Source: Antedon bifida (Eukaryota; Echinodermata; Crinoidea; Comatulida; Antedonidae). From it: a DNA stretch of 64,000 bases. The stretch spans positions 19,873,665 through 19,937,664 of the forward strand of contig OY727100.1 of NCBI GenBank assembly GCA_963402885.1. Reading direction: 5' to 3'. The notes below the pieces were generated by a model that was given only the letters and a program-made list of their open reading frames with translations, made no database searches and was not told the DNA's origin. Position numbers and translations under genes: made by a program. Shown piece after piece: positions 683-58,478 of the stretch (within the stretch, counting starts at the first letter, position 1; each line of letters begins with the position of its first letter).

Positions 683-817
683 ATCCAGTTATAACGTCGG
701 AAGGGGACCCGCTGTTTAAGAGTATTAAAGAAGGGTACTCCGTAACAATCGAGTGTATTGTTAACTCGAAGAGCACATTTGAATGGTCTCGAACCAAACC
801 TTCTGATAAAATCCAAG
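683..817 (+). CDS. Gene A exon 1 in window: Ig1 first half
   Basis: Acceptor TTTTTTTCAG precedes 683 and donor GTATGG follows 817; phase 1 at both ends. Encodes the A-C strands of an Ig domain with the first core cysteine (TIECIV) and the core tryptophan (FEWSR). Its counterpart in gene B is 34680-34820. Confidence 0.8.
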
Positions 818-3800
818 GTATGGCTTAGTGTACATTATACTCGTATATAGTCGTTCATTGTAGACGCTACGATCCGAGTGTGCATGCGCAACTTACTTGG
901 CCATTCTTGGCTGCTTTAAACGTTTGTATACATTGGGATTATTATTTTCTTAAAACATTGTAACAAATAAAAACAATATTCGAATTCAATTTTTGCTTTC
1001 AATATAATTATTTTTGTTCTTTAAAAAATGCCTTTAACCATTTTTAGCTGTATTATATTATAATTTAATCCATTAATCGGAAACAATTATTGTAACAAAA
1101 AAAGAATATGTTTTTAGATATTCAATAAGCAAATGTATTTCTAGATTTTAATAGAATATTGAGCGGCGATGTCTTCAAGACACCGATAGAGGGCGACAAG
1201 AAGCTATCTTTATATCAAGTAGTAAACACAAATTGTTATACAAATGCCAATTTCCCTATAGCAGGATCAGAACTCTCACATTTCCAATAAAAGGACTAGT
1301 TAAAATATTATAACTGAGGACAATGTCCGAGTAGTATAATAGACAAATGTTTTTCAAGATTTTAATAGAATATTGAGCGGCGATATGTCTTCAAGACACC
1401 GATAGAGGGCGACAGGAAGCTCTCTTTATATCATAGCGGGATCAGAACTCTTGCATTTCCAATGAAAGGACTACTTGACATATTATCTGAGGACAATGTC
1501 CGAGTAGTATATGTTGACACGTTATTAAACACATCATTACAGTATTGTTGGTGGGTGCATTAAATGACTTGCATTTATTGTAATAAATAGTTCTCTTTTT
1601 TTTTGTTTATCACTTTTTTGTTTATGCAGAAATCGATTCGACAACAAGAAACAATCAATTTGAAATTAAAGAAAATGGTTTTAAAAACATATCAATGCTT
1701 ACGATTAAGCAGATGACAACGGACTATTCGGGGACATACGTGTGCGAAGCAACGCAAGCCGAAGGTCAATACGTACAACGTTTTCAATATGAAATACAGA
1801 CAATAGGTAACAACGATACGCCACAGTTATGATTTTTTTTCTTAACCTATGTTTTTATTGCTCTGTCTACACTATCAAACTGTATGTGACAAAAAATGTG
1901 AAGTGCGCATAATGATGATAACGATGACATCACTGCCATAATTGGGCACATCACACATTTTTTGTCAAACTCTTTTCATAGTGTAGCTATAAGTAAAGAT
2001 AGGTTTACTCGATATTTGATTTTGAATCCTTGACATTTTTCATACTTTTGCGCCTAACAATAGCCAACTAATGCTAGGCATTAAAAAAGGGAATAAACAT
2101 ACAGTTAGGTTGAAAACTGATAGCTTTTGATGTATACTTTAAATATACTTCGCTTGATTAGTTTTGATACCCATTATTTTTCACATGATTAATATTGCTG
2201 AACGTGTAGCGGTTATATTGTACGGTTAATAACACATTTTTATAGATACTATTTACATCTTGTTTTTAATAGTTGCTCCAAAAATTACAGACATCAAAGT
2301 AAACAACAGTTCAATTGGTAAAGGTTGTCTATTGGAGTTTAAAGAATCTGTTTTCCTTAGTATGAGCTGTGAGACTAATGGTTCTCCACTTCCAAACGTC
2401 TTGTGGCAGAGAACATCCAACAAGGATGATAAGGTGGCATTCATGAACGCATCGTTTCTCATATTTCCCAATTTGACACGAAAGTATGCCGGAGTCTACA
2501 CATGTAAAGCATGGAACGAGGCTGGTGTGGTGAACCGAACAGTGAATATATCAGTATTGCGTAAGTTACTGGCATCCTGCTATACGTATATAACATTTTC
2601 AACTTAATAAAGTTTATCGCAAATTGTGTGAGCGATGCATAATGGGAAGGGTTTGGGAGCAACAACCACCAATATATAAAGTTTGTATTATACGGTGGCG
2701 CTATTGCTCTCAAAACCCTTCCCATCATGCATTGTGCAATGACGTTTCTCGTGAAATCAAGGTATTTGCGATAACCCTTATTGTGTCATCTATACTATAA
2801 ATATTATACTATACTGTAAAACATTTTTACTATTTCAATACACCAGATAAACCAGAAATTACGTCCAGCTCTGATCAAGACAGACGTGTTGGGGTGGGCG
2901 AGCAACTCGCTATCTTCTGCAAGCACACTGGAAATCCACGCCCTGTGAACACCACGTGGTACAAGGACGGTGTACCCATACATTCAAATTCCATGTGGAT
3001 GACAGAGGATAGGTAGGCTTTCTTTTTAACCATGCACAGCTTATTTCGAACGTCAACTAATTCATCTTTTATTAAGATGTTTAGGCCTACATGGTTTGAT
3101 TCCAACTGACATTACCCCTTATATATTAACATCATTAGCCATAGAAAGCATTCTAAACCGCCCGATGATATTGGCCTACTGGATCATATCTGATGAGGAA
3201 AAGCCGTCCTAACCGAGATTTGAACTCGGAATTTTCTACTTGATATTTCCTAGAGCACGTGTTGGCTTTCCATGGATTGTTCGATTGGATAGCGACCCTT
3301 TAACAAACACCATACGCGTGGTTCGGTGGAACAGCGCTATAGTGTTCAATGTAAGCATGCGCAACTTAGATACAATTGATACGCCCTCATCTGCTAATAG
3401 CCCTTACATTTACACTATATATTTTTTATTTGTGTTTACAGCTTACTGGTGACAATTTCGTCAAAAGCAGACTATGGTGATTACACGTGTGAAATTAGTA
3501 ACTCGCAGGGTAAAACATCGAGAACATATGCTATTAGTGGTGAGCATCAACATAATCATTAATTCACTATTCCCTGGTTTAACTACTGTTATTATTCACA
3601 ACATATTTAATCACAAACACTCGTCACCATCCATTCACCATTATTATTATCGTCTACATGTTCGTATCGTCGTAACCATCACCACCACTACTATTACGTC
3701 ATTTTATCTATCATCACAATGTCGTCGTCATCGCCAACAGCAACAAACGATCATTAAGTCACCGTCACCATGTAGTCCTCATTCCCTCTATAATGTGATT

Positions 3801-6800
3801 ATCAACATTTTTTGAAAATGGGGATTTTTCACAAACGAACATTCTGCTGTCACCGCTATAAAAAAAGTTGGGTCATTATGTTGACATAATCACCCCAACT
3901 TTTTTTTAGACCGGAGCTACCTTTTAAGATACAGTAATGCTATTTTTCCCCTTTAAGGTCGTCCAAAGATGCCTACTATTCTCAGTGGAAATACGAGCAG
4001 AAAAGCAAATGAATACCATTTAAGATGGAAATCTAATGGTCACTACGTTGCTCACAAGTATTTCATAGTTCGTGTTATTCAAGTTAAAACAAATGTGGGC
4101 CCACGTATAACAAATGTAAGTGAATCGTAATTATCTCAGAGTTAGATAAAATGTAAGAAAGGATAAATATGTATTATATTACTATTTAATTAAAATTATT
4201 TCTTTTTTTGTTGAACCAAATAGGCCTAATGTAGACACAAATGGTATAAACGCTTAGTAGCGTTTCGTTGATATGCTGTCAACTTCTTCAAACTTCGGAA
4301 ATTGGTCTGTACAGTCTTAGAGATGCTGTGTGGCGCCACCAGTCGTCCTGTTGTTGACGATTTAGCGTTTCCGCTCTTTTCCTTCTCCTGCTTCAATTAT
4401 CTTCAATAAACTATCGTAAACATGCGGAAGATCATATTCTCCACTGTTGTGTAGGCCTATGCATATTGCTTTCTTAATCTTTCTTCTTTCTCTATCTTTT
4501 ATTCCTTTTCGATAACCTTTACTTTCCAATTTGGTACAGCTGGGTCTCCAAGACTGTACAGACCATTCCAAACAATAGTATGGTCTGGTCGTGACGTATC
4601 ACACGTGGTCAGCCCTACACCAGGAATCGCAGTTTTAGTTATAATTATATAACCTAACAAATATATTTGTACAGAGCTTTACATACTTAAATATACAGTC
4701 GTAAGAAAATTAACTTCGTCGTCCGATTTTGATTGTTAAGCAAAATATTGTGTTTTTTTTTCAATTAATGCTCAATGAAGAAATCATACTGCGCATACAT
4801 GAATACCTTTTGTTGTTGATATTTATGAGTTATGATATTACCAGTTGATGTAAACTTAATAAATCCTAGAAGAGCGCGGCAAAGACGTCCAAAGGGCGTA
4901 TTTATGTTTGATTCAACGCAGTGCTTTAGCACAATAGTTAGCGGGTTGAATCTTATTTCCGTTGCAAGTCCTTCTGATTCATTTTCCATGAATGTTTATT
5001 CTTTCGTTTGATGCTATATATCTAGGTTTACAGCAAAATCAGATACGTTATATAATAATTCTCGACAGTGTGGACCTCGTTTGGAATCACTTTTGCTTGT
5101 GATAGGCCTGCATCATAGGCCAAAAGAAGTCCTCACATTGTTTTAACATGTACTCCTTTCCCCCAACAGAACAATAATACTTTTAGCGATGGTATTGAAG
5201 TTCAACGAATTCGAGTTCCAGTGATTTCGTCGAAAAAACACTTCGCATTACGTTTACAAGCGCTTCGTCGTCAGATTTCGTATAAGATATTCGTCACACC
5301 GTATATTGAAGATGACATTTCTGGAGACGTGGCAAGCATTATAATACAGACACCTCTAGGTAGCATTATAATAATTATATGTATCTCTATAATACCCTTA
5401 TACAACAAGATGTGAAAATGGTATTAGTAGGAAAATGGTATTAGTAGTAGAATGGTCAAGTTTTTAAAATTGCACTATACACGTCAACTTAGCATAAGCC
5501 TACCTCGTTTTCACCTGATACTTAAGCTTGGTTCTCACTAGAGACGCAACACAAGGACGTAACGCAACGTAAGTGAGTTGACCAATCACAAGAGCGATGA
5601 ATTATTCGAACTGTCGCTTGTCATTGGTCAAAACGTTTGCGTTGCGTGTACGTCCTAGTGGGAACCAAGCTTAAGACAGAACCTCGTGTATGACTACCTG
5701 GTGTAGGCTACACAATTGCACACCTCGTTTAGACCCGATTCCTGACATGTCAACTCTTGAATACATTTAATCTATTGAATTTAGTTATATTATGAACTCT
5801 GTCGTTTCAGAGGATTACGTCCTTCAAGCAAGCGTAGCAACACCGACGCAGCCGAAAGGTAAGACACAACTATAATATGAATATTTTAACTTATGATTAC
5901 AATATGATTTCCAATATGGTAAGTAGGCCTACCTCGCCATCTATTGCTTAAGTCATTTTAAAGAAAAACATAGGAAAACAAAAATGGCAGATATTATTAT
6001 GCATGTTCGTAATAATAATTTTACAATTGATTTGCAATAATTATGGTAAGTAGGCCTACTTCGCCATTTCATTGCTTAAGTCATTTTAAAGAAAAACATA
6101 GGAAAACAAAAATGGCAGATATTATTATACATGTTCGCAATAATAATTTTAATATAGCATGCTTTATTAGAGAAATCAAATCCCACGATATTGCAGCGAA
6201 CTTGATCGGTTGTCATGACACATTCAATTGGAAACGCCTAAGAGTGATGATTTCAAAACTGTTTGCCTGCAATTTTCTAGATCCTGAATATGAACAGCGC
6301 CATCTATCTATTACTTAAGTCATTTTGAAGAAAAAATTAAGAAAACAAAAATGGCAGATATTATACATGCTTGTAATAATCATTTAAAACAAATATAAGA
6401 TCTTGAAGGAAACTTTGTAGCTACACACACCGTCTAAAGTAAAGACAATCAACATGAGCTAACGTTGTATTTATGCTGAGTTGCACACATAAGTTGACAT
6501 ACATTCAACATTGAGTAATCCAGTTAGTTAGAATCATTTAGTAGGTCTACGTAGTTACTGTAATGTATTGTATTGATGTTTGTAATGGACAGACACAAGC
6601 TACGTAAAACGAAAACAAAAACGTTTTTGTTGTTGCAAGGAGAAATAGACACATGCGCGGGCTAAATAATTATAAACATTATATTAAAAGAAATTGCGTA
6701 GGTCTGTCTTTCTTGTGTCGATCATCAATGCGAAAATTAAGTACACAATAATTTTCTCAACCTACAAAACAAAGGAGAAAAAGGCCTATATTAGGTGGTG

Positions 6801-8471
6801 CCTCATGTTACAGAAGAATAATCTACGTATATGGATTTCAGTTCACTCAGGTACCCTACAAATTAGAATTTAATACGTAACATGATTCTATTTCAACTCT
6901 CTTTGCCACAACATAAAATACATGATTTAAGTTACATGAAAACCTAGATTGATGTTAATATATCATACTTTAACAGCCGGCCAGTAGTATGAACAGTAAG
7001 AAACTAACTTGCAAACTCGTCATATAATATTTTTGTATCAGAAAAGATTGTGTGGATTCTTTAGATATGGTTTATCATAAGGAATAAACAGAGGGTTTAA
7101 CCATGTGATCTAATTTAAGTAGCTGAAATGATTGTAAAGTTTGCAGTAAAGTGCAGTTCATTAAAAAATGAAATAAAATAGGCCTATGTATCGAAGTTTT
7201 GGTCAACAAGAACATTAAACTTATCATTTTGTTTTTTATTATTATATAATTTATTTTAAACTTTTATTTATTATTAAAAGTAAAATGGTTTAACAGGAGA
7301 CGAAATTAAATTTGAGTATAAGAGCAGGTTTTTGGGGTTCCCGTCCGTCTTCAGAGAAACAAGCAAGCGTCGAAAAATGTCTCGACTTTACCTGTTTTCC
7401 ATTGGAAGCACATTGTATACATCATATCTGATACTAAACTTTTGTTGTGACAGACAAATGTCCGCTTCTCAATTAAACCTATAAGCAAACTGTAGACCCT
7501 AAATGTAGAACATATTAAAATGCTTCATTCCTAAAGAGCATACATGGTTAATTTTTGAAGAAATTTCATTTAAAGTAGAGAAATTATTTCGATTTTTTTT
7601 TCTTTTGTGACTTGAACCACCACTTTTATTCATTCAACGATATGTTGTATTTGTTATAAATCTAACAATCTTCACATATCTATTTGGTCATTGTAATTCT
7701 TCTTTTCGTATGTATTTAAACTTTTTATCCATAATTGATAGTTTTTATATATAACATTTATATGTGTATATAGAAAAAGAACCAAGTAAGCAATTCGAAC
7801 TTGTTATTTGAATACAACTAGCACAACAACCAAACTAAATTAGGATTAAGACATTTATTATAATGTTTCCCTTCTGATATATAGTTATACACCTCCATAG
7901 TTATACAAAAAAACAACAAAAAACGGAGTAGTACAATTACTGCTATCTTAATGTTTCATCAACAAATGTTGAGATGATCAATCCGTGAATGCGTGTCAAT
8001 TAAATATACGAATAGAAAATTGTCTTAATGTTTCATCAACAATAATGTTGAGATAATCAATCCGTGAATGCGTGGCAATTAAATATACGAATAGAAAATT
8101 AAATTAAAATGTAATTAATTTGATCACGAAGGTCGCAATTCATTAACTTGTATGCGATATTTCTTTTAGTCTAGAATTCTTTATTAGAGAAATCAAATAA
8201 CGCGATATTGCAGCGAACTTGATCTGTTGTCATGACATATTCATTTGGAAACGCCTAAGAGTGATGATTTCAAAACTGTTGCCTGCAATTTTCTAAATGC
8301 TGAATCTTATCTGTGTGTTTATATCTTATCCAATCACGTTTATTATTTATTTTTTGTATAGCTTATGCACAAATTCAGACATTGCCTGGAAATGGAGTTC
8401 GCCTGGCATTGATAAGTAACTTTTTGATCCCGGTTACTCTCTTAATGACGATGTCGATTGGATTCTTGTAA
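683..8471 (+). CDS. Gene A: GPI-anchored 3xIg + FN3 cell-surface protein (5' end outside window)
   Basis: Nine exons: 683-817, 1630-1806, 2273-2560, 2847-3012, 3442-3539, 3958-4115, 5170-5359, 5811-5858, 8362-8471. They total 1370 nt plus one base from the missing upstream exon, giving 456 residues and a TAA stop, with every junction in phase. Domain order: Ig1 (C in VTIECIV, W in FEWSR, then DYSGTYVCEA), Ig2 (LSMSCET, VLWQR, YAGVYTCKA), Ig3 (AIFCKH, TTWYKDG, DYGDYTCEI), FN3 (YHLRWKS core, second half ending near IIIQTPL), short Thr/Gln linker, then a C-terminal hydrophobic stretch with nothing after it. That end is typical of a GPI attachment signal, so the protein probably sits on the outer cell surface as an adhesion molecule or receptor. 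Signal peptide exons must lie upstream. It is a diverged paralogue of gene B. No orthologue or named family is assigned; contactin-, MDGA- or NCAM-like proteins share domain types only. Confidence 0.85.
1128..1520. repeat. 214-bp tandem duplication in gene A intron
   Basis: Two head-to-tail copies start at about 1143 and 1357, both reading AGATTTTAATAGAATATTGA, then sharing TCTTCAAGACACCGATAGAG, a GGATCAGAACTCT block and a GGACAATGTCCGAGTAGTAT end. The second copy lacks an internal ~40 bp. Lies in the intron that splits Ig1. Confidence 0.85.
1630..1806 (+). CDS. Gene A exon 2 in window: Ig1 second half
   Basis: Acceptor TTTATGCAG, donor GTAACA, phase 1 to 1. Encodes the D-G strands with the diagnostic DYSGTYVCEA motif that carries the second core cysteine. 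Counterpart in gene B: 36339-36503 (DAGSYQC). Confidence 0.85.
1860..1992. mobile_element. MITE-like element, family 2 (TGTCTACACTATCAAAC ends)
   Basis: Left end GCTCTGTCTACACTATCAAA; right end carries ...GTCAAACTCTTTTCATAGTG and TAGCTATAAG, an inverted, degraded copy of the left end. Internal TGACATCACTGCCATAATTG matches the core of the other copies (18488, 27801, 52471, 63485). Non-autonomous inverted-repeat element in the intron between Ig1 and Ig2. Confidence 0.75.
2273..2560 (+). CDS. Gene A exon 3 in window: Ig2, single exon
   Basis: Acceptor after TTTTTAATAG, donor GTAAGT, 288 nt, phase 1 to 1. A whole I-set-like Ig domain: LSMSCET, VLWQR, then YAGVYTCKAWNEAG. It holds several N-glycosylation sequons (NSS, NAS, NLT, NRT, NIS), fitting an extracellular domain. 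Counterpart in gene B: 38663-38971. Confidence 0.9.
2614..2774. mobile_element. 161-bp inverted-repeat element (TTATCGCAAAT ends)
   Basis: Starts TTATCGCAAAT and ends ATTTGCGATAA. Inner arms ATGGGAAGGGTTT / AAACCCTTCCCAT and GGGAGCAA / TTGCTCTC also pair, so nearly the whole element folds. No open frame. In the intron between Ig2 and Ig3. Confidence 0.8.
2847..3012 (+). CDS. Gene A exon 4 in window: Ig3 first half
   Basis: Acceptor CACCAG, donor GTAGGC, phase 1 in and phase 2 out. Encodes EQLAIFCKHTGNPRP and TTWYKDGVPI, the B-C strand core of an I-set Ig domain. Counterpart in gene B: 39512-39671, which ends in the same phase. Confidence 0.85.
3180..3290 (-). mobile_element. Possible tRNA-derived SINE head, minus strand
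   Basis: Reverse complement contains GAGTTCAAATCTCGG, close to an RNA polymerase III B box, preceded about 25-30 nt upstream by an A-box-like ACACGTGCTCTAGG stretch. Lies in the intron that splits Ig3. Could be chance; no poly-A end seen. Confidence 0.4.
3442..3539 (+). CDS. Gene A exon 5 in window: Ig3 second half
   Basis: Acceptor TGTTTACAG, donor GTGAGC, phase 2 in and 1 out. Encodes LLVTISSKADYGDYTCEISNSQG in outline: the F strand with DYGDYTC and the G strand with an N-x-x-G turn. Counterpart in gene B: 40301-40434, with DYGNYTC. Confidence 0.85.
3585..3785. repeat. Degenerate CAT/ACC trinucleotide-rich tract
   Basis: Runs of CACCATC, ATTATTATTATCGTC, ACCATCACCACCACTACTA and CGTCGTCATCG in the intron before the FN3 exons. 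The 113-codon frame over it is low-complexity and not coding. Confidence 0.7.
3860..3907. repeat. 48-bp near-perfect hairpin before FN3 exon
   Basis: AAAAAAAGTTGGGTCATTAT... pairs with ...ATAATCACCCCAACTTTTTTT around a 2-nt centre. It ends 50 bp upstream of the FN3 acceptor at 3957, so in RNA it would bring a stem close to the branch-point region. Confidence 0.8.
3958..4115 (+). CDS. Gene A exon 6 in window: FN3 first half
   Basis: Acceptor CCCTTTAAG, donor GTAAGT, phase 1 in and 0 out. Opens with GRPKMPTIL and carries the FN3 B-strand tryptophan (YHLRWKSN) followed by a C-strand KYFIVRVIQV. Counterpart in gene B: 49487-49632, with YILKWQVN and the same phase-0 exit. Confidence 0.75.
4116..5169. 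other. Gene A intron between FN3 halves, with fold-back
   Basis: Contains inverted copies of TGGTCTGTACAGTCTT at 4303-4322 and 4546-4565 (one mismatch region), spacing about 240 bp. Minus-strand frames here (4362-4571, 4765-4989) have no domain or splice support. Otherwise nothing recognisable. Confidence 0.6.
5170..5359 (+). CDS. Gene A exon 7 in window: FN3 second half
   Basis: Acceptor CCCCCAACAG, donor GTAGCA, phase 0 in and 1 out. Encodes the E-G strands: HFALRLQALRRQISYKIFVTP (the L...Y core spacing of FN3), then GDVASIIIQTP. Counterpart in gene B: 50913-51117. Confidence 0.75.
5521..5675. mobile_element. MITE-like element, family 1 (CTTAAGCTTGGTTC ends)
   Basis: Left end CTTAAGCTTGGTTCTCACTA and right end TAGTGGGAACCAAGCTTAAG form ~20-bp terminal inverted repeats; the interior also pairs (ACGCAAC / GTTGCGT, GACCAATCACAAG / CTTGTCATTGGTC). 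No coding capacity. Other copies: 30120-30270, 60761-60884 and a partial at 59504-59577. Confidence 0.85.
5811..5858 (+). CDS. Gene A exon 8 in window: 16-codon linker
   Basis: Acceptor GTCGTTTCAG, donor GTAAGA, 48 nt, phase 1 to 1, so it can be skipped without changing frame. Encodes EDYVLQASVATPTQPK, a Thr/Gln/Pro stalk between FN3 and the membrane anchor. Gene B has three such stalk exons. Confidence 0.7.
5917..6390. repeat. Triplicated ~100-bp unit in gene A last intron
   Basis: Units at about 5917-6020, 6041-6150 and 6297-6385 share CGCCATCTATTGCTTAAGTC-like starts and ACAAAAATGGCAGATATTAT ends, followed by TGTTCGTAATAATAATTTTA. Copies 1 and 2 are adjacent; copy 3 is separated by the 130-bp segment that recurs at 8176. 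Confidence 0.85.
6158..6290. repeat. 130-bp segment, duplicated at 8176-8305
   Basis: Both copies read CTTTATTAGAGAAATCAAAT, GATATTGCAGCGAACTTGAT and AAACGCCTAAGAGTGATGAT with a few substitutions. A much shorter, doubtful relative starting TTCTTTATTAGAGAAA lies at about 40187 in gene B. Identity suggests recent local duplication or a short unknown element. Confidence 0.8.
7946..8100. repeat. 77-bp tandem duplication
   Basis: TCTTAATGTTTCATCAACAA begins at 7946 and 8023; both copies continue through AATCCGTGAATGCGTG and end TACGAATAGAAAATT. Only small differences (a 2-bp insertion, GTGTC against GTGGC), so it is recent. Confidence 0.9.
8176..8305. repeat. Second copy of the 130-bp segment
   Basis: Copy of 6158-6290, in the same orientation, ending about 55 bp before the acceptor of gene A's last exon. 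Differs by several point changes and a one-base deletion (ACTGTTGCC against ACTGTTTGCC). Confidence 0.8.
8362..8471 (+). CDS. Gene A last exon: GPI-attachment signal and stop
   Basis: Acceptor TTTTTGTATAG, phase 1, stop TAA at 8469-8471. Encodes AYAQIQTLPGNGVRLALISN, then a hydrophobic run FLIPVTLLMTMSIGFL at the very C-terminus. Small residues (PGNG) suit a cleavage site, and there is no cytoplasmic tail, which is the pattern of a GPI signal rather than a transmembrane anchor. The 2.5 kb intron before it is full of local duplications. Confidence 0.75.
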
Positions 8472-8814: not shown

Positions 8815-8820
8815 AATAAA
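8815..8820 (+). promoter_or_regulatory. Probable polyadenylation signal of gene A
   Basis: AATAAA, with overlapping AATAAA-like copies just downstream, about 345 nt after the gene A stop codon. The interval 8472-8815 would be the 3' UTR. It contains a 94-codon open frame (8527-8811) that I do not regard as a gene. Confidence 0.55.
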
Positions 8821-13469: not shown

Positions 13470-13498
13470 CTTCTACTACTTGTGCTGTATACGTTGCC

Positions 13499-49500: not shown

Positions 49501-52500
49501 CCAATCATTGTAAGTAGTCCTATTGGTACAATGATGCACGAATATATCTTAAAATGGCAAGTTAATTCAACGTTCCGGCTACCACCTGTCAAACATTTTA
49601 AAATACAATATAAATTAGAGGTAGATTCTATAGTAAGTATACATTATATTTTATCAACACATTTGTATTTAAATTCTACTTTAAATCATTAAAAAGTACA
49701 TTTACAACTACAGCCTTGCAGGAAAATAACAAGTAAGTTTAAAGAAGATGCATTTTTTTCATGTTTTTACAAAATAATTGGTTTAATTCGGTGGTGTAGA
49801 CGTGGTACACCAACTTGCTTATTAAATTGGTCCTCTACTCGTCAACATTTTGAAATTTTACACAATAATTTATAAAAAATTGTTCAACACGATTTTACTT
49901 ATTAACAACATTACATTCTTCATCAGATGTACTGTAGGAGAGTACAAATACATTGATTCTCTACTCGTCACCCGCATTGATTTTGATTTTAAACTGTTTA
50001 AAGTGAAAACATTACATTTTTATTTTGATGCAGAGTACAAGTAGATAGTATAAAGTAGCGTTGCCAAAATTAACAATATTGCTAGAGGCAACGGTGATAT
50101 AAATCACTTTTTCTGATTAGTGAAATCTGTCTTAAATGTTAGTCAAAAGATTGTTGCGTGTTTGCAATTATTTTGAAATATCACAGTGTATTGTTATTCC
50201 TATTTTAACTAACGTATCTTTTATAGCTTATCAAACATTACTTATGGAATTTATATAATTGTGATGACGATAGTTACAATCCGTTATGCATGATTAATTT
50301 ATAGAATGACGTAATGCATAGACGGATAAAGATTTGTATTCGTTATGTAACGATCCAGATGTGTTGTCAATAAATTACGAAGGAATTAGCTAACTGCCAT
50401 TGCCAAGTGACTAGGGTGTGGTGTGTCCTTACGCTGGCTCCTTATATTACAATCGTATATCCGAAGTTTGTGTTGGTACAATAGTTTCATGTTTAAATGT
50501 AGGCCTATAATTTGATAATCTTATTAATGAATTCCAGGAAATATTGACACTTCACTATCTGATTTGCTTAATGCATATTACCTAACTGCGAGGTTTCTCT
50601 TCATTAGGCAGCTGATTTGATGAAACCAAATGAAAATAATTCGACCTAATTAGAATGATGTGTTTGCTCATTTAGTTAAAATGCAAACATTTTCTAGAAA
50701 TCAACTCATGTTTAGCTACCTGTAAAATCTCGTTTCTAGAATGTACAAAGTAATTTGTAGTCTTAACAAAATATGTTTTTTAAATTATTTATTTATTGAG
50801 AATCCATATAAGAAATAGTTATTATCCCATTGAAATTTGTCATTAGCTTGTTTAACTTTTGTAAAATAAAGACGACTGTTTTCAACCATGACAATAATGA
50901 TTGTTCTTTCAGGAAAATAATTTCAATGAATCGGAAACTGAATGGAAATGTAATAATTATACTCCAAGAAAAGAGGACTCTCAGGAAAATGTGGTATTTA
51001 ATACAACATTAGAAAACTTACGAAAAAATTCAACATATTTTGTAATCATGGAATCAACAAATTCGGCAAAGCCTCCAGAAAGAGGAGAAGCTGCGTTTTT
51101 TCAGTTCAAAACATCAGGTATTTACATAATTTAAATTATAATTCAATTCAATATAAAATTAAAAAACAAATAGACCAGTATAGATGGATTGGATGTATGT
51201 ACTAACTAAGTGACGTTGTTTGTCGCGGTAAATATAGGCCTACCAGTCCATAATCAGAGGGGTTTTTAAGAATATAACTTCAGATCTCGCCATAGTCATC
51301 ACTCGATTTAAGTAGCATCTTTCACACCTACTCCGATCCGGCTTTGGCAAATAAAATCGCATATCAATGCCGGAGATATGTGCTTTATAAGAGCTAAGCT
51401 TAGTAGTGTGTCACTGACTTTGATACTATGAAAAGTGATTAGAAAACACGCATTGAAACTTTGTATTGTTTGATAGAATTGAAAAGAGTTATTAACTTAA
51501 AGTATGATGAATGTCACATACCGAACCATAATCGTTCAGCCTACTTTATGCAACATGATAAGCTGAACAATAATAGCATTGTGTTTGATGTTAAGTATAT
51601 ATTTTACCTTTGGCTAGTATACAGCTAAATCACACAAAGAGATATGAAACATGTAACGCCTGCGTAACAAATACTTTTGCACCGTGATACACCGATTCTT
51701 TGTGCTGTATCTCCGGGTATGTGGTGCCTGTTTTAAAGTTATGCTTAAGTGTATATGTTACACTGCATCACATAATGTTTGTTAGTACCAAGAATTGGCA
51801 ACATAATAATGTAAATTGATAAATAGATACATTCTACTCAAATTGAAAATATGAAAGATTATACACAAACAAATGTGTATGTATCTTGAACTTCTTGTTT
51901 CTTTTTAACTGAATTGTTTGTAGTACAATAATTAAAAGGTACTAATCTGTGCAATTATTATATTTACAGCCGTGTTCATTACTCCAACAACAACAACACG
52001 TTAGTATCAACGTTGTAACAAACACCCTTCTAATGTGTTGCATAATAATCCCAAGTATTGCCATCCGTCATTACCTTAGTTGGTTTATCACTGTCTTCCT
52101 GACTCAGCTTTCGCTTTATGTATTAAGCTTTTAAGAATCAGTACTGCTGTATGTTTATTCCCGGTGTTACCCATTCATCACATTTCTCCTACTTTTTACC
52201 TCCTATATTGTTCGCTAAATCCATCATTGTCTTTTGTTTTTGTACAAATTTGGTACAAACATTAATGTAAATGAAAAATCGTTGTAAAATAATCTATAAT
52301 AAGCACACTAATGGTTAGATGTTCCGTTTATTTAAATGATTGATGCATTTAAACTTGAGTATCAATTAATCATCACGTATCAATTACCGTATCTTAGTAT
52401 TAACCAAAACCAACGTTCGTGACTTTGTGTCTATATCTTACTTTAAATCCTATTCTAACACTGATAAACTTTAAGCTCCGTCTACACTATTAAACTAGTT

Positions 52501-55500
52501 TGACAAAAAAGTGTGATTTGCCCAAACATGGTAGTGATATGACATCATCATGACCATATATCGGCACATAAAATTTGATAGTGTAGACAGAGCTTTAGTT
52601 TGCAAACGCTGAGTTTGACAAGTTTTCCAAAGTTTGCTCGTATGGACCAGTTGACAAAAACTTCGACAAACTACAGAAAACAAGTTTGCAGAAGTCCACA
52701 CTACAGTTACAGTAAATAAAAAAGAAAAATAATGTTGTTTCTTAATTAGAGAGGGATTGTTTATTTTATAATATTTTGTATTTTTGTATTTGTAGCAAAA
52801 CCAATTGAAGTCTCGTCAATTATTACGTCACAAAAAGATACCACTTTTACAAAAACAACAGCATCAGGTAAAATAGCTATACTTTTTAAATGTTATTGCG
52901 AAATTTTATTGACAAAATCCAAACATTTTAATTTACTTCATTGTGTTGTCAGTTGAGAGAAATTTAATTAATTTATTTATCCAGGTTAAATTAAGTTTAG
53001 TTAATTGTGTTGTCAGTTGAGAGAAATAAACTAAACTTAATTTAACCTGGATAAATGAATTAATTAAAAGTAAACGCAGAACATGGCGAAGGAGTTTTAT
53101 TCGTAACGTTATGGTCGGTTGTTGTGGAAGCTGTTCTATATCTATAGAGCTGTTGATTTTTCGTCACGCGGTATTGATTATTTAGTTCCATTCAACGGCC
53201 AGGTTTGCGATTAGGCCGGTAAAAAAAGTCTATTGCTCTACGGCGAAATTGTAAGCGGCCCCTTTCACTTGTTCTAGCCTTCTATATATGTTGATTCAAA
53301 TACGCGGTGTTTGCACTCGATTTAATGAATGAGAAATAATCGAAGAAATGAACTATGAATTAAGTAACGAGTTTATAGTAAATATTACATTTGATATATA
53401 TAATGTGCAACCTTTGAATGACCTCAAATCACACTTAAGATCAAGCGAAAGAATATACTAATAGTAGAGGGCGCCACATATGTCAACAAAAATGTGCATT
53501 TACGTCATAATACTAATTTATTTTCCATTCGTGTTATCAGTAGAATCATCAATATTATTACAATATTGTTTATAATAGTTAAGGTTTTACAACCAAACAT
53601 GAACACATACTCATTATTCACTTATAAACTGCAAACTGTACAAAGAATTCTAAACACATAATGACACAATCGTCATATTATTAATTATAAAAACAAATAG
53701 AAATAATATGATAAATTATCCGTTTAAATTTGCTTATGTTTTCTGAAATCCACATGAAACACTACGCGGTCATAAATCGTATATTTATTCAAATTTATTA
53801 TGCTTGTAAAATACAATTAAGGATTCTATCTTTCTCTGACGCTTTCGATGTCAAATCTTGGGAATTTAGAATAATTTAAATCCTGTATTTAGATTTATTT
53901 ATAATTAATTCGTCTTATACCTCCGACGTAGAATGTGTATGTATATAGTGCTGCTTTGAACACTGGGAGTCTTAAGCGAAATAATATAATATGACTTGTC
54001 TGTATGACGCCATTCGTGATAATGTTAGTTTTTAAGCACGTTGCATAAATCGTGGGATTAAATACCATAAAAATAATACCAGTGACTTTATAATTATAGT
54101 TATAATTAATTTCAAATCTACGTTCAAATCTAACTTTGCACAATCTTGTAGTATAACATTAGGCCTATCATACAGGACCTGATGTACCAAAAATGGTAGG
54201 CGTATTCGATTGGTCGCAGAGGAAGTTGAGGAGATATATGCTGATTCTGCTGAAAGCAGATCAGTCAAAGGCATACATTGGATACTATCGTGACGTGTAT
54301 GTTCGAGGAATACAATTCTCGAATTTTGGTACGCTTTGCGGATTATTTTTAGTCGCGTGCAAAGCGATTCTACAGCTCACTATGTCGGTCGGTCGATCGG
54401 TCGGTTGGTCGGTAAAGACTAACTTGAGCACGCCCTGCAGCCATGTATATGGCCTTGTTGAATAGAAAAATGGTGTTTGCGTGTCACAAACTAAATATAC
54501 TGTGTATCACCCTTATAATTAATTAGATACACCTCGCACAGTTATTACACGCTCATGGAAATAACCAATAAAAGAAGAACTAGGTTGGTGTAGTGTAAGA
54601 AAATTTACTAACCCCGATTTCTATTACTGAATCTAAACATACACTGTAATTTTAGAAATTTAATTTATCTAAACCATCCGTGTACAAAGTATGAGGTTTT
54701 GGACCGCTAGAGGCAAAATATTTCGTCTACACGTACACACCATGTTCTTGCTCAGCTAACTCATGCTCTGTCTTTAAGCTAAATTGAGATTATCAAAATT
54801 GAACTATTAAACTATTGGCATGCCATAATAGCCTAAATTGGAATGTCACTTTGTTAATTTCAAATGATTGAAGACTGTCCTTTGGGCGTGTCATAGTTAT
54901 GTTCAGTAAATATTGGGGATGTATATTAACATAGGACGGAATAAGTTAAATTCCAGAAAATTTGAATTTCATACATAATTTTAGTAACCTAACTGTAGGC
55001 CTATATAGAGTAAACCAAATTTCCTTAGATTAAATAATCTTAATAAACTTGATGTTTTCATTCTAGTACAACTGAAGATGTACAAAATAAGACAGCAGTC
55101 AGTGAAATGATTTTAAAAGTAGAACCTTTTCTTTGGTAAACCTCTATCTGAAGGGACACCTCTACCAGTGAAACTGACAAGAAATAACATGTTTTAACAT
55201 TATAGCCAACACTTACTCAGGGGACACCCATGGACATTAATGTATTTATAATATAATACTTACAAAGTTCAAGTTAGGCGTTTAAGCGTTAGAGTAGGTC
55301 AACATCACAATCAGTACGATGTTGCTGATGCAACCTATGGATCACTTTAAAGTTTAATCTTAAAAAAATACACTCTGTTCTTATCCTATAAAGGCATAAT
55401 TGTGATGTTTTCCATTTCTTGCATAATACATCTTATTCCTTCACTATTTCGACATTGTTATGTCAACGCTAATATAAATGACATCATTTTATAATACAAT

Positions 55501-58084
55501 TTGAAGTCTTGAGTTACATTAAGAAAGACAGTGCGTTATTAATGAGTTTCGCAAACAAGGTAATTCAAAGAGTTTGACGTAACAAGAACGAACAGACATA
55601 CTAACCAAGCACCGACCAATGATCTGAAGTTAATTGAAATTCTATAAGAAGATACATTCATTCGTCATTTCAATATAAATGGTTGTCTTAGTGGGTGGGC
55701 TAAATACTTTTCATTCATTAATTTTTTAATTCATTTATTTGGTCAAAATCATTAGTCAACATAAATGCACACTACAACAATAAAAATACACATACAATGG
55801 AGTTAAAAGTTTAAAAACAATCAAAATCAGAAAGCTTTAGTTAAAATATTCAAACATTACAGTCATAAAAGATTATAGTAAATTACGTTTATAAAGGTGT
55901 AAAAATACATTACAAATTGAGTGTATACAATATCATAGTAAAATACGTTTAAAAATTTGACATTTAACATTTGATTGCTAAAGACCAATTGGTTTTTTAT
56001 CACTCGTGCCTGTTTTACCTTTACTTATAAGGATAGTAATCTTGAGAAAGCCGAGACTAAACACTTCATTGTGATAACCGCAATTCTTCGGTCTGGACGC
56101 TGGCACGAACTTCCACCTTTTTACATTTTCTTAGATCTTGTTTCAAATATCTACAAAGATACCGTCCGTTAGAAAATACATTTATATTTATTCTCATTCA
56201 TAAACGATTTCATCTTATTTTATACATTATCTTTGTTTAGGTGCTGGAACTGCAAAAAGCATTTTAACGAGTTTCAGAAAAAATCAGAGAAAGGCATCAA
56301 CGCTGCACGCTCCAACAAACCCAGGTAACTTTTTAAATTCATCATGCAACATTAGTAGTCACAAGAGAGTTAATAGATATGGCCTTAAGGAATACAATAG
56401 TCTCAAAACCTAGCGAAATGCTATTTGGATTAATATTGGCGATCAATGGTCTTTAACAATGTATCGTCTGCTTATTTCAATTAGGAGCTTAATATGATAG
56501 CGATAATTCGAAAATTCCAATAATGATAAATAAATAATATATCTGCAATACTATATCATCTAGCTCAACTCATTTTATGGCGGGAATATTGTTCGGGAAT
56601 ATTGAAGTCTGCCGAACGCATTCACTGTCGATTTTAATTATTGTCTGCATGATATTGCAATGGAAGAGTTGCAAAAAATCAACACGTTTAATATATGAAG
56701 CTGTCTCTTGTGTATTAGGATCTATCTAATTATTTTCTTATCGAATTATACTACCGTATGTAGTCGTACGCCGCCTGTTAATGAAAATTAATGTGATTCT
56801 ATCTATCCTAGCCGTAAGCATAACCAATTCATACGCAGCGAATATTCCCCATTATATAAATATATATTTCATTTATGACTAAAAACGTCTGGGCTTCTAA
56901 AAAGCAAGCCAGAAGTACCAGCTTAACATTTACGACATTATATACCGTACAGTCCAAAAAGTTAAAATTTATAAAAACGAATAAAAAAAACTATACATGA
57001 TGTTGGAAATAAAAAATATATGACTTCTACATAAAAAAATATTAAGACAAATATATACCCAACTATACATAGAATGAAGTTATGTCATTGTTTTATTTAT
57101 TTATTCATTTTCATTTTGCTTAATTTAGGTAACTTCCCTCCCATTTCAACATATTTTTATAAATTCCATTAATCCACTGGGCCCATTCATAAATCATTTC
57201 ACATTCTGCGGCTTATATGGGTATTTTTTAGGCTTAATACTAAAAAGATCATTTATTGTAACATTACATGATTACAAGGTCAAGGTTAGAATAAGAAAAT
57301 GTATACGGCAACTACAATAATGATATTTGTAAAAATACCGCCTACTTTCGATTTAAAGTATTATAGTATTGTTTGTTTTATACTATAATCTCTTTGGTTT
57401 TAAAGTTTGCTATCAAAAATGTTTGGAATTCCCAAATCAGTTCAGTTGACAGTAATTTGGGCTCTCACTCTAGGATCTCATTAGGGCCCCCAATAATACT
57501 GTGATGGCGCTAGTTACACTTCGTTTATGCATGAGTAATTAATGAATGACGTAATGCATAAACGGGCATAAAAAGGGAGTACGATTTGAATTCGTGGTCG
57601 ACTGCGAATTCGGTAATCCAGTATCATTGCACAAGCCAGATTTGTTGTAATAAAGTACGAATGAATCGAGATGATTAAACAAATATTAAAAATAAATTAA
57701 CAAAATTAAGCATTGTAAAAAGTGTTATTGTTTTGATGGATAATAAGTAACGTTTTACAGATTAAAAAAAATACAATTACTTGGGTTATAGAAAGTTTAT
57801 AGGGAGGTCATTCAATTGTTGAAGTCCGGCTATTAAAATAACATAACTGACATGTAGTAGTTAATTTAAGACAGCATTTAATAATAGAATAGTTTTGTTA
57901 ATAAAAATGTATTTAAAAAATGTAATAATGTATTTAAAAAAAAAAATAAATTTAATTTTGTCTAGGCTTGGTACGAATGACATCAGCCGTGGCAGACACA
58001 ACTTATAACGAAGCTAGGACCAACAGAGTGGCCTCTCTATTGGTCATCATAGGCGTTTTGATATGCAAATTTCTAATGTTATGA
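13499..58084 (+). CDS. Gene B: complete GPI-anchored 3xIg + FN3 cell-surface protein, 592 aa
   Basis: Thirteen exons: 13499-13559, 33996-34148, 34680-34820, 36339-36503, 38663-38971, 39512-39671, 40301-40434, 49487-49632, 50913-51117, 51970-51999, 52796-52867, 56241-56324, 57966-58084. Sum 1779 nt = 592 codons plus TGA; all junctions are in phase. Residues 1-20 are a signal peptide. About 21-71 is a Ser/Thr-rich segment with four cysteines. Ig1 is ~72-173 (C93, W108, C158), Ig2 ~174-276 (C209, W221, C257), Ig3 ~277-374 (C301, W313, C358) and FN3 ~375-491. Thr/Ser/Lys-rich stalk ~492-565; C-terminal hydrophobic tail ~575-592 with no cytoplasmic part. Many N-glycosylation sequons. It is likely an outer-surface adhesion or recognition molecule. 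Same architecture and intron phases as gene A. Start chosen for the signal peptide, G at -3, and an in-frame TGA upstream at 13436-13438. No named family is claimed. Confidence 0.85.
14075..14192 (+). mobile_element. tRNA-derived SINE fragment
   Basis: Contains a near-consensus pol III B box (GGGTTCGAATCC) followed by a CTCACCCAGGTGTACAAATG motif and GGTACCTGG, a tail seen in tRNA-derived SINEs of marine animals. The A-box part is weak, so the 5' end may be truncated. Confidence 0.6.
14822..15045. repeat. Degenerate ~20-27-bp tandem repeat (CGCTAACGTAAAAAAA)
   Basis: About nine imperfect units of the form CTCGCTAACGTAAAAAAAC, with spacing varying by the length of the A run. No G-rich counterpart and no open frame of note. 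Confidence 0.75.
16205..16380. repeat. TCATCC/TCCTCC microsatellite tract
   Basis: Pyrimidine-rich run of CTCCTCC, CATCATCATC and CCTCATC words. It generates an acidic Asp/Glu frame on the minus strand (16224-16415) and a Leu/Ile-rich frame on the plus strand, both artefacts of the repeat. Confidence 0.85.
16449..16550 (+). mobile_element. tRNA-derived SINE or tRNA pseudogene head
   Basis: Reads AGCTCGGTGGTCTAGAGGTA (A-box like) and, about 30 nt on, GGAGGTCGTGGGATCGAATC (B-box like), then CCCGAG, which would close an acceptor-like stem. No intact cloverleaf is asserted. Confidence 0.6.
17344..17449 (-). mobile_element. Family 4 repeat (GGTC-core), inverted copy
   Basis: Starts AAAACAAGGCCATATACATG, contains GCAGTCGCGTGCTCAAGTTA and a CCAACCGACCAACCGACCGA core, ends GTGAGCTGTAGAGTCGTCTA. 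Reverse orientation of the copies at 33411 and 54346. Confidence 0.85.
18241..18315. repeat. ATC microsatellite
   Basis: ATCATCGTCGTCATCATCAT and related words over ~75 bp. Confidence 0.9.
18488..18648. mobile_element. MITE-like element, family 2
   Basis: Left AAGCTCTGTCTACACTTACA, right TATGTAGACAGAGCTTA. Interior has GACATGATGATGTTATATCA and CACTACCATATTTGAGCACA, shared with copies at 27801, 52471 and 63485. Confidence 0.85.
19457..20009. mobile_element. MITE-like element, family 3, long copy
   Basis: Left TTAAAGATGTATTGTCCC and right GGGACAATACATCTTTAA are exact 18-bp inverted repeats. Interior 517 bp, with an ACTTTGACTTCCAGTCAAAG palindrome near 19629. No transposase frame. Confidence 0.85.
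20750..20803. repeat. 27-bp tandem duplication
   Basis: GCGTAATGAATTGACCTCGT continuing TTTCAGC, repeated exactly once. Confidence 0.9.
22465..22530. repeat. Short inverted repeat (GGGTGTAATTA ends)
   Basis: GGGTGTAATTA at the left and TAATTACACCC at the right, with inner TATTCAACAGGG / CCCTATTGAATA also complementary. 66-bp hairpin. Confidence 0.7.
24909..25190. repeat. Diverged ~188-bp tandem duplication
   Basis: AGGCCTC... then TTTATAATTGGCTTACATCT and ATTTGTAATAATCGCAGTA in copy 1 match AGGCCTC... TTTAATTGGCTTAATTCAG and ATTTGTAATACTCGTAGTA in copy 2. Confidence 0.55.
25421..26103. repeat. C-rich minisatellite, ~20 units of 28-29 bp
   Basis: After a degenerate lead-in (25421-25527), about twenty units read ATAACAACCATCCTCATC followed by five or six C, T, then five C. 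Units differ only in the 5C/6C length. From 25449 to 26110 the + strand has no G at all; the minus strand carries G5-G6 runs. Located in gene B intron 1. Confidence 0.95.
27801..27967. mobile_element. MITE-like element, family 2
   Basis: Left AAAGCTCTTTCTACACTATC, right AGTTTGATAGTGTAGACAGA then GCTTA. Interior TGATGTCATATCACTACCAT with a second ACTACCATATTTGTGCACAT. A partial relative follows at 28027. Confidence 0.9.
28027..28110. mobile_element. Partial family 2 element
   Basis: ACATGATGATGTCATATCAC, ACCATATTTGGGTAAATCAC, AAAGTGTAGACAGACCTTT: right half of a family 2 element, 60 bp after the previous copy. Another right-end fragment is at 31771-31820. Confidence 0.75.
28124..28189. repeat. 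17-bp arm inverted repeat
   Basis: ACTGGGAAACAGTTTTCT and AGAAAACTGTTCCCAGT are complementary except for one extra A; loop ~31 bp. Confidence 0.75.
30120..30270. mobile_element. MITE-like element, family 1 (left end degraded)
   Basis: Right end CCTAATGGGAACCAAGCTTA plus AG matches the 5521-5675 element; interior CATCGCTTGTGATTAGGCAA matches the 60761 copy. The left inverted repeat is barely recognisable. Confidence 0.75.
31771..31820. mobile_element. Family 2 right-end fragment
   Basis: ATATCACTACCATATCTACC then TTTGATAGTGTAGACATAGC, 50 bp. Confidence 0.65.
33411..33540 (+). mobile_element. Family 4 repeat (GGTC-core)
   Basis: TTTTTAGTCGCGTGCAACGC (with GTCGCGTGCAACGCGAC, itself a palindrome), CTACAGCTCACTACGTC, a GGTCGGTCGGTCGATTGGTC core, TAAACACTAACTTGAGCACG and TGCAGCCATGTATGTGGCCT. 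Copies at 17344 (reverse) and 54346. Confidence 0.9.
33996..34148 (+). CDS. Gene B exon 2: Cys-containing, Ser/Thr-rich N-terminal segment
   Basis: Acceptor TTTTCCATAG, donor GTACGT, 153 nt, phase 1 to 1. Begins GKCTSLIYGSTDIPCKDDNC, in which three cysteines fall within 18 residues, followed by a PLTSTSTAQKTTSEDTQNST-like mucin-type stretch. No recognised domain. The sequence after signal cleavage probably starts here. Confidence 0.7.
34680..34820 (+). CDS. Gene B exon 3: Ig1 first half
   Basis: Acceptor TTACTTTCAG, donor GTATGT, 141 nt, phase 1 to 1. Encodes SSITLACPRLG and the core tryptophan in KYRWTKIKP. Sequons NQS and NSS. Paralogous to 683-817; both end shortly after a W-x(2-4)-K-P segment. 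Confidence 0.8.
34821..36338. other. Gene B intron between Ig1 halves
   Basis: Holds the CAT/CAC microsatellite at 35192-35332 and a partial relative of family 3 ending GAGGGACAATATATTTAATG near 36145. No other exon seen. Confidence 0.5.
35192..35332. repeat. CAT/CAC microsatellite
   Basis: CATCATCATTATCAGCATTG through CACCACCACCACCACCAAAA. Produces a Gly/Asp-rich frame on the minus strand and an Ile/Thr-rich frame on the plus strand, both artefacts. Confidence 0.9.
36339..36503 (+). CDS. Gene B exon 4: Ig1 second half
   Basis: Acceptor AATAATAG, donor GTACGT, 165 nt, phase 1 to 1. Encodes YVITIRNAKATDAGSYQCTV, the canonical D-A-G-x-Y-x-C F-strand motif, then a G strand ending HVFMI. Paralogous to 1630-1806. 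Confidence 0.85.
36504..38662. other. Gene B intron between Ig1 and Ig2
   Basis: Contains the degenerate tandem repeat 36718-37005 with an ATATTGTGAA / TTCACAATAT hairpin at its left end. The rest is AT-rich without recognisable features; small frames at 36886-37179 and 37367-37624 have no support. Confidence 0.5.
36718..37005. repeat. Degenerate ~38-bp tandem repeat (CGCGATCCTACGAGATATTG)
   Basis: Six to seven units of the form CGATCCTACGAGATATTGTT then a T run and GACCG; units vary in T-run length and point changes (CGATCCTAAGAGA, CGATCGTATCAGG). Confidence 0.75.
38663..38971 (+). CDS. Gene B exon 5: Ig2, single exon
   Basis: Acceptor TTTTTCTTTAG, donor GTAAGT, 309 nt, phase 1 to 1. Full Ig domain: MILSCWAHGIPTPFVTWFR, then ITLQHAGKYICYANNSLG with the A-N-x-x-G turn typical of I-set domains. 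Paralogous to 2273-2560. Confidence 0.9.
38972..39511. other. Gene B intron between Ig2 and Ig3, nothing recognised
   Basis: 540 bp, AT-rich, no repeat or RNA feature seen. Confidence 0.5.
39512..39671 (+). CDS. Gene B exon 6: Ig3 first half
   Basis: Acceptor CATTTTCTAG, donor GTAAAT, 160 nt, phase 1 in and 2 out. Encodes EFVTLACKINAIPNATLKWF with KDGSQL following. The phase-2 exit matches gene A exon 2847-3012 exactly. Confidence 0.85.
39672..40300. other. Gene B intron within Ig3
   Basis: 629 bp. Only a short, doubtful relative of the 6158 segment near 40187. Nothing else recognised. Confidence 0.45.
40301..40434 (+). CDS. Gene B exon 7: Ig3 second half
   Basis: Acceptor TATTCTGCAG, donor GTAAGA, 134 nt, phase 2 in and 1 out. 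Encodes MKFVLLTVKPRDYGNYTCIA followed by TNPLGNG. It has one extra cysteine (LYCPDD) compared with gene A's equivalent exon, a candidate for an additional disulphide or a free thiol. Confidence 0.85.
41437..41660 (+). mobile_element. tRNA-derived SINE, apparently full length
   Basis: Starts with GTGGCTTGGTGGTTATGATG (A-box region), then B box GGGTTCAAGTCCC about 35 nt on. A ~150-bp body includes GAACCTCTGAGCAATTGCTG and the element ends ATTAAATATGGTTAAAAAAA. This is the usual head-body-A-rich-tail order of a SINE. Confidence 0.8.
44376..44450. repeat. GC-rich tandem duplication (TTTCGCCATACGTCAGCCCG)
   Basis: Two ~36-bp units, TGTTTCGCCATTCGTCGGCC and TGTTTCGCCATACGTCAGCC, each ending CCGGATG. 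Much richer in G+C than its surroundings. Confidence 0.75.
44805..45000. repeat. GC-rich tandem array related to 44376
   Basis: Units of ~46 bp: TGTTCTGTCGTATGTCAAGC, TCTTCTGTCGCACGTCAGAC, TCTTCTGCCGCACGTCAGGA, each followed by CCGTTCCGGATGACATGTGC or a variant. The pattern decays into CCGTACGTCTGCTCGCGCCG. Confidence 0.75.
46437..47735. repeat. 26-bp satellite, ~50 units
   Basis: Unit ATGATGACGATGAAGATAAT then GTGGAG. The right two thirds are nearly uniform; the left part (46437-47110) has more variants (ACGACGAAG, ATACTGTGG, ATCTGAAG). Because 26 is not a multiple of 3 and no unit frame contains a stop on the minus strand, long minus frames of 446 and 251 codons arise. These are not genes. 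Confidence 0.95.
48341..48605. repeat. Diverged ~166-bp tandem duplication
   Basis: TACCACAACAAAAAACTCTT ... CCCAATGTGCAATATTTAAA in copy 1 against TACCACAACAAAAAAACAAA ... CCCAACGTGCAGTATTTTAA in copy 2. Confidence 0.6.
49487..49632 (+). CDS. Gene B exon 8: FN3 first half
   Basis: Acceptor TTTTTTTTAG, donor GTAAGT, 146 nt, phase 1 in and 0 out. Encodes AKPVAPIIV, then EYILKWQVN with the FN3 core tryptophan and a HFKIQYKLE strand. A second GTAAGT sits inside the exon (about 49510) but would break the domain. Preceded by the 9 kb repeat-filled intron. Confidence 0.8.
49633..50912. other. Gene B intron between FN3 halves
   Basis: Contains one copy of a repeat pair (50261-50390, partner at 57501-57670). 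Remaining sequence AT-rich, no exon seen. Confidence 0.55.
50261..50390. repeat. Repeat family 5, copy 1
   Basis: GTGATGACGATAGTTACAAT, CGTTATGCATGATTAATTTA, GAATGACGTAATGCATAGAC, then a later TTGTCAATAAATTACGA. Partner at 57501-57670. The TTATGCAT...ATGCATA core is an inverted repeat. Confidence 0.75.
50913..51117 (+). CDS. Gene B exon 9: FN3 second half
   Basis: Acceptor GTTCTTTCAG, donor GTATTT, 205 nt, phase 0 in and 1 out. Encodes TTLENLRKNSTYFVIMESTN, the L-x(6)-Y core of FN3 strands E-F, and ends AFFQFKTS, a typical G strand. Sequons include NES, NYT, NTT and NST. Confidence 0.8.
51118..51969. other. Gene B intron after FN3, nothing recognised
   Basis: 852 bp of AT-rich sequence between exons 9 and 10; no repeat or RNA gene seen. 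Confidence 0.5.
51970..51999 (+). CDS. Gene B exon 10: 30-nt stalk microexon (tentative)
   Basis: Acceptor TATATTTACAG, donor GTTAGT, phase 1 to 1. Encodes AVFITPTTTT, a Thr-rich stalk piece. The donor is weaker than consensus. Because the exon is symmetric, including or skipping it leaves the rest of gene B in frame, so it may be alternative or not real. Confidence 0.5.
52471..52597. mobile_element. MITE-like element, family 2, inverted orientation
   Basis: Left TTAAGCTCCGTCTACACTAT, right TTTGATAGTGTAGACAGAGC; interior CAAACATGGTAGTGATATGA and CATCATCATGACCATATATC. Between stalk exons 10 and 11. Confidence 0.85.
52796..52867 (+). CDS. Gene B exon 11: stalk
   Basis: Acceptor TATTTGTAG, donor GTAAAA, 72 nt, phase 1 to 1. 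Encodes AKPIEVSSIITSQKDTTFTK in part and continues Thr/Ser-rich. Similar in position to gene A's 16-codon linker exon 5811-5858. A 37-bp-arm fold-back begins about 70 bp downstream. Confidence 0.65.
52940..53065. repeat. A-B-A-B' fold-back: 24-bp direct repeat plus 37-bp inverted arms
   Basis: ATTGTGTTGTCAGTTGAGAG then AAAT occurs exactly at 52940-52963 and 53004-53027. Between and after them are 37-bp arms (52966-53002 and 53029-53065) that are reverse complements with one mismatch, sharing TATCCAGGTTAAATTAAGTT. Confidence 0.95.
53910..53985 (-). mobile_element. Possible LINE reverse-transcriptase C-terminal relic
   Basis: Minus-strand translation ends ...ALYTYTFYVGGIRRINYK, which resembles the R-T-D-x-Y-K-Y-S-F-x-P-x-x-I-R-x-W-N tail of CR1/RTE/jockey-type LINE polymerases only loosely, and the stronger relic at 58856. 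Very degraded. Confidence 0.3.
54346..54459 (+). mobile_element. Family 4 repeat (GGTC-core)
   Basis: TTTTTAGTCGCGTGCAAAGC, TACAGCTCACTATGTCGGTC, GATCGGTCGGTTGGTCGGTA, ACTAACTTGAGCACGCCCTG, CAGCCATGTATATGGCCTTG. Same orientation as 33411. Confidence 0.9.
56241..56324 (+). CDS. Gene B exon 12: basic stalk segment
   Basis: Acceptor CTTTGTTTAG, donor GTAACT, 84 nt, phase 1 to 1. Encodes GAGTAKSILTSFRKNQRKAS and continues to APTNP: a basic, unstructured-looking segment with no counterpart seen in gene A. The splice sites and symmetric phase support it, but no domain signature does. Confidence 0.6.
56325..57965. other. Gene B last intron
   Basis: 1.6 kb, contains repeat family 5 copy 2 (57501-57670); otherwise AT-rich with nothing recognised. 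Confidence 0.5.
57501..57670. repeat. Repeat family 5, copy 2
   Basis: GTGATGGCGCTAGTTACACT, CGTTTATGCATGAGTAATTA, GAATGACGTAATGCATAAAC, TTGTTGTAATAAAGTACGAA. CGTTTATGCAT and ATGCATAAACG are perfect inverted copies 25 bp apart. Confidence 0.8.
57966..58084 (+). CDS. Gene B exon 13: GPI-attachment signal and stop
   Basis: Acceptor TTTGTCTAG, stop TGA at 58082-58084. Encodes YNEARTNRVASLLVIIGVLI and ends CKFLML: small/polar residues, then a C-terminal hydrophobic run with nothing beyond it. This is a GPI-signal pattern, like gene A's last exon. A tail-inserted transmembrane helix without a cytoplasmic domain is the alternative. Confidence 0.75.
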
Positions 58085-58455: not shown

Positions 58456-58478
58456 ACAATTCTCTTTGTGTGTATAAT

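Follow-up and report, generated by a model that had tools for sequence, protein, structure and literature searches.

The window analysed here is a stretch of 64,000 nucleotides from the crinoid Antedon bifida (C13:19873665-19937664; contigs are numbered C1 and so on), and the genome searched for relatives comprised 315.6 Mb in 27 contigs. On the mitochondrial contig (C27, 15,844 bp), the conserved residues of ND1 stand at their places, as judged by eye, when AAA is translated as Asn and AGR as Ser, a code that indicates an echinoderm or a hemichordate; a 4.3 kb portion of it has 28% GC, similar to a published crinoid mitogenome with 72.73% AT (PMC8820819). It holds two genes on the plus strand, A and B, each with seven exons that code for three immunoglobulin (Ig) domains and a fourth domain of putative fibronectin type III (FN3) kind. 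Positions without a contig name refer to the window.

Exon structure of genes A and B

The seven exons of gene A span positions 683-5359. Ig1 is divided between exons Ig1a (683..817) and Ig1b (1630..1806), and Ig2 is coded by a single exon (2273..2560), all three entering and leaving in phase 1. Ig3 is divided between Ig3a (2847..3012, phase 1 to 2) and Ig3b (3442..3539, phase 2 to 1), and the fourth domain between FN3a (3958..4115, phase 1 to 0) and FN3b (5170..5359, phase 0 to 1). An Ig profile of our own making matched Ig1b (E=1.8e-11), Ig2, Ig3a and Ig3b. The fourth domain was unrecognised as FN3 by Pfam and gave one chance-level hit (E=0.81) in the PDB search; its two exons are putatively assigned to FN3 by homology to B and to gene C, described below.

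Gene B spans 34680-51117 with the same series of exons: Ig1a (34680..34820), Ig1b (36351..36503) and Ig2 (38663..38971), again entering and leaving in phase 1, followed by Ig3a (39512..39671, phase 1 to 2), Ig3b (40301..40434, phase 2 to 1), FN3a (49487..49620, phase 1 to 0) and FN3b (50913..51117, phase 0 to 1). The same profile matched Ig1b, Ig2, Ig3a and Ig3b, and profile support for the FN3 of B is weak, both Pfam matches falling below their cut-offs (PF25059 DSCAM FN3, E=0.014; fn3, E=0.13). The large intron of gene B contains, on the minus strand at 46407-47810, a long low-complexity repetitive stretch whose open frames, the longest of 467 aa, are built from a short repeated unit; the stretch coincides with strong GC skew at 44001-48000. 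Between A and B, at 24001-28000, the GC skew is strongly negative (-0.357).

Each of the 14 exons (seven in A, seven in B) is an open frame flanked by AG upstream and GT downstream, and the exit phases are identical in the two genes (1,1,1,2,1,0,1), as the preliminary description had claimed. Its three Ig domains per gene were likewise confirmed by Pfam, which recognised three Ig stretches (Ig_3, I-set) in A and B alike. From Ig1 to the start of FN3 the two proteins align colinearly with 76 identities in 323 positions (24%; 78.6 bits; E=2e-20, a value for a single pairwise comparison), and the residues in common include Cys, Trp and the Y-x-C core, in agreement with the earlier remark that mostly the structural core is shared. 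The introns at the domain boundaries occupy identical alignment columns in the two genes (124, 238 and 338). Within domains, the introns are at columns 60/60 in Ig1, at 301/292 in a gapped stretch of Ig3 and at 394/399 in a poorly aligned stretch of FN3. These results support the homology of A and B, their possession of one exon plan and an architecture of adhesion-type surface proteins.

Ends of the two genes

Both genes had been described as ending in a GPI-type exon. Candidates of this kind, each including a stop, do exist at 8362..8471 for gene A and at 57966..58084 for gene B, both on the plus strand and both tentative, and the latter reproduces the end coordinate, 58084, of the preliminary description. 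The region after A (5360-34600) yielded four GPI-type last-exon candidates against a mean of 2.55 in 20 shuffles of two-base blocks, a chance rate, while the stretch after B (51118-60000) yielded one, a count that stands without a shuffle of that stretch. A Ser/Thr-rich linker exon was tentatively placed in gene B at 52796..52867 (plus strand, phase 1 to 1), without homologue or control. At the other end, signal-peptide exons upstream of A numbered three candidates against a shuffled mean of 2.1, not above chance, and in 20001-34680 no candidate for B was found against a shuffled mean of 1.4; scans at two different thresholds returned chance-level candidates only. For gene C, the 20 kb read around the gene gave no convincing last exon. 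A GPI anchor for A and B is therefore plausible and nothing stronger, since GPI-type terminal exons occur at about chance rate and no signal exon was found for either gene; for the same reason transmembrane, secreted or longer forms are possible, as is one long gene.

Gene C and relatives of A and B in the genome

Whole-protein searches of the genome at E<=0.01 gave at least 53 matches for A (103 of 185 candidates scored) and at least 36 for B (101 of 120 candidates scored). In each search the first seven rows were the query gene's own exons, and among the matches listed there was no close copy of A or B, all non-self rows having at most 39% identity. In the same lists no exon of A was present among the matches of B, nor any exon of B among those of A. 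One gene of the same plan beyond A and B was found among the matches listed, namely gene C on the minus strand of another contig (C11:22931146-22923696), with seven exons and phases as in A and B; its Ig1a exon, 4.5 kb upstream of the remaining exons, is the least certain of the seven. The FN3 domain of C matched a Dscam chain in PDB (E=1.4e-5) and Pfam fn3 with E=2e-4 and 22.0 bits, under the 25-bit cut-off. Thus of the FN3 domain ascribed to both window genes, B shows a weak trace and A is unrecognised, and the assignment in both is supported by homology to C.

The three genes share the boundary columns 124, 238 and 338, and the intradomain introns of A, B and C lie at 60/60/58 in Ig1, 301/292/304 in Ig3 and 394/399/402 in FN3. 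Among the matches listed, the best match of B outside its own gene was the C11 stretch holding gene C (E=2.8e-7), and that of C was Ig2 of B (8.4e-7), so that Ig2 of B and Ig2 of C are reciprocal best matches. Pairwise scores for A-B, A-C and B-C were 44, 48 and 38 in Ig1, 81, 59 and 114.5 in Ig2, 80.5, 83.5 and 89 in Ig3, and 46.5, 65.5 and 80.5 in FN3; C rather than A is thus the higher-scoring partner of B in three of the four domains (Ig2, Ig3 and FN3). The exon plan is therefore an old family trait, and the tandem position of A and B is no mark of recent duplication. The earlier description of A and B as tandem paralogues is accordingly upheld as to position and homology, while A and B do not form a best-scoring pair. 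A tree of the Ig domains (21 rows, 18 inner branches, none well supported) held neither the Ig1 nor the Ig2 domains together, each set needing three changes; only Ig3 grouped, in 68% of the bootstrap trees of this weak tree.

Seven more Ig loci with weak matches were found besides A, B and C (C13:18.67, C13:22.91, C14:3.557, C1:9.58, C7:9.10, C13:17.64 and C16:15.40 Mb), so that the family may extend beyond these three to more genes with this plan. A further Ig locus lies at C14:1.81 Mb (L038).

Other Ig genes in the genome

The search for flanking paralogues proposed in the preliminary description was carried out over 100 kb on each side of the window, and it yielded one relative in plan, gene E, the nearest within that range; besides A, B and E, our Ig profile matched solely other kinds of Ig frame there. 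Gene E (C13:19939590-19941574, minus strand, 2-4 kb to the right of the window) is a two-Ig gene convergent with gene B, with exons Ig1a, Ig1b and Ig2 followed by a stop, and has a GC-AG intron. No Ig3 exon for it was found in about 16 kb, including window positions 50001-64000 on the minus strand. Gene D (C1:9922322-9924554, minus strand), also with two Ig domains, stops after Ig2, and 15 kb downstream contained no Ig3 exon; a search with its protein at E<=0.01 gave 102 matches, and many of these are Ig frames without introns. Both D and E keep the phases of Ig1a, Ig1b and Ig2.

Ig genes of other kinds were observed elsewhere. At C13:19778989-19779943, 94 kb to the left of the window, lies an Ig-type frame pair on the plus strand, V-like and then C2-like (L010). 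About 67 kb to the right of the window begins a tandem cluster that belongs to a different Ig family, with multi-exon genes on both strands (C13:20004387-20700178), and 27 of the 32 matches to one of its exons fall within this 0.7 Mb. Within the 50 kb of the cluster that were read, each V-like or C2-like Ig domain occupies a whole exon and some copies exceed 90% identity, and the Ig frames at 20.00-20.04 Mb are whole-Ig exons, unlike the plan of A and B; the cluster looks like a genuine recent expansion. On C7, 21 intronless genes stand in a row on one strand (C7:24694622-24729786, part of which is locus L035), mostly about 1.68 kb apart and each with one open frame of 488-534 aa; the three in L035 read as a signal peptide, three Ig domains, a transmembrane stretch and a tail. 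At E<=1e-10, 84 of 87 rows fell on C7, many of them at 18.4-18.7 Mb. Long single-frame genes of 1306-1341 aa with Ig domains occur in at least three copies at C14:3572719-3622120 (L037, C14:3.62 Mb).

Discussion

The preliminary description had interpreted the strong divergence of A and B on a fixed scaffold as the sign of an expanding family of recognition or adhesion receptors. Our results do not support this: no close copy of A or B occurs among the matches listed, and in three of the four domains B is closer to C than it is to A. The divergence of A and B can be explained by great age, with no need for selection, and a dN/dS ratio for this pair would be saturated at 24% identity. Expansion of Ig families in this genome is that of other families, and A and B appear to be ancient relatives of neural adhesion proteins already described, not members of a freshly expanding recognition family. 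We consider it probable that A and B belong to a small and dispersed family of three Ig domains plus FN3, in which they are old and diverged, and that they are tethered to the surface, perhaps by GPI. On this view their plan was inherited from a common ancestor and kept by C, and their most likely action is like that of Elff, Klingon and the IgLONs.

By analogy with these proteins, the outer Ig domains would bind like or unlike Ig proteins on the adjacent cell, FN3 would form the stalk, and the protein would be held at the surface, in adhesion contacts, by a tether of GPI or another kind; the contacts would most likely be neural or epithelial. We infer the FN3 of A, and the anchor, secretion, binding, tissue and function of A and B, and the action proposed for them is drawn from the known action of Elff (PMC13015403), Klingon (PMC12804075, PMC10863630) and the IgLONs (PMC5288359).

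Other readings of the locus deserve consideration. The exit phase of the last FN3 exon of A and the entry phase of the first Ig exon of B are both 1 and would fit, the last exon of A is a mere candidate, and a first exon of B was not found. A and B might therefore form a single long gene in which an Ig-Ig-Ig-FN3 cassette is duplicated, giving six Ig and two FN3 domains. The two cassettes are on the same strand, the scan of 20001-34680 gave no signal exon for B above chance, and GPI-type exons after A occur at chance rate. However, 29 kb lie between the cassettes, a candidate stop-bearing last exon is present at 8362-8471, and no second cassette was seen in the 20 kb read around gene C, so we regard a single gene as unlikely. 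Less probable still is the proposal that A and B form part of an expanding group of immune or self/non-self receptors. In its favour, the two are strongly diverged, the contig is rich in Ig genes around them, and a multi-copy Ig cluster begins about 67 kb to the right. Against it, that cluster has whole-Ig exons and a different plan, close copies of A or B are lacking among the matches listed, and the sole same-plan gene found there, C, lies on another contig and is closer than A to B.

Since phase 1 is the general rule for introns at Ig borders, it might be argued that the two Ig-FN3 genes are unrelated and resemble each other in plan by chance or by general Ig conventions, the more so as their similarity to each other is no greater than their similarity to titin and each is absent from the other's listed per-exon genome matches. 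Against this, the intradomain introns have phases 1, 2 and 0 in A, B and C alike, which under equal phase odds and independence is expected by chance about once in 27 for the pair and once in 729 for the trio; domain order, the unsplit Ig2 and the end-to-end alignment agree as well, and separate origins appear the least probable of the explanations weighed here. Only slightly more credible, and offered as speculation, is the wider proposal that A, B and C together with the two-Ig genes D and E constitute a single adhesion system of deuterostomes, whose short members would be soluble and bind the long, tethered members, as Dprs do DIPs, and in which B and the convergent E would be a linked receptor-ligand pair.

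If the family of A, B and C is the echinoderm branch of the Elff/RIG-3 type, a neural adhesion architecture of flies and worms would reach a deuterostome phylum, and the exon plan would be usable as a marker of descent where identity has fallen to about 24%. The result also sets an old conserved scaffold apart from the genome sites where Ig families have really multiplied.

In the two PDB searches, the best 60 of 158 and the best 60 of 156 matches included titin, DSCAM, contactins, neurotrimin, OPCML and DIPs, and no row among them was named Elff, Fipi or RIG-3. Titin had the top score in both searches, thus sequence alone singles out no family of the Elff type. Our literature searches found no paper on a crinoid or echinoderm family of this kind, which is not a claim of absence from print. 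An Ig adhesion gene known from echinoderms, kirrelL, is required for skeletogenic cell fusion and is described as intronless in all echinoderms studied there (PMC8903837). A and B are multi-exon. kirrelL is more relevant to the intronless arrays, and the array on C7 may be connected with the idea of retrotransposition that the same account raises for kirrelL (PMC8903837).

The IgLONs (LSAMP, NTM, OPCML, NEGR1 and IgLON5) are described as consisting of three Ig domains and a GPI anchor without FN3, and their Ig1 is coded by two exons according to a figure legend (PMC5288359). A and B resemble them in their three Ig domains, in an Ig1 spread over two exons and in PDB matches to neurotrimin and OPCML, and differ in carrying a fourth domain of putative FN3 type after Ig3, seen directly in C and attributed to A and B by homology. 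Klingon of Drosophila is an Ig protein with a GPI anchor that mediates homophilic adhesion in neural wiring, and its domain content is reported as similar to that of Dprs and DIPs (PMC10863630, PMC12804075); its likeness to A and B is one of description. Drosophila Elff (CG33543), a member of the NCAM family, is predicted to be GPI-linked with three Ig domains and one FN3, and Fipi and C. elegans RIG-3 are mentioned together with it (PMC13015403). Of these Elff-type features, three Ig domains are present in each of A and B, while FN3 is recognised in C, weak in B and unrecognised in A. The comparison is by description; the host lineages are distant, the GPI anchor of A and B is putative, and the likeness lies in the architecture of three Ig domains plus FN3 stated for Elff (PMC13015403).
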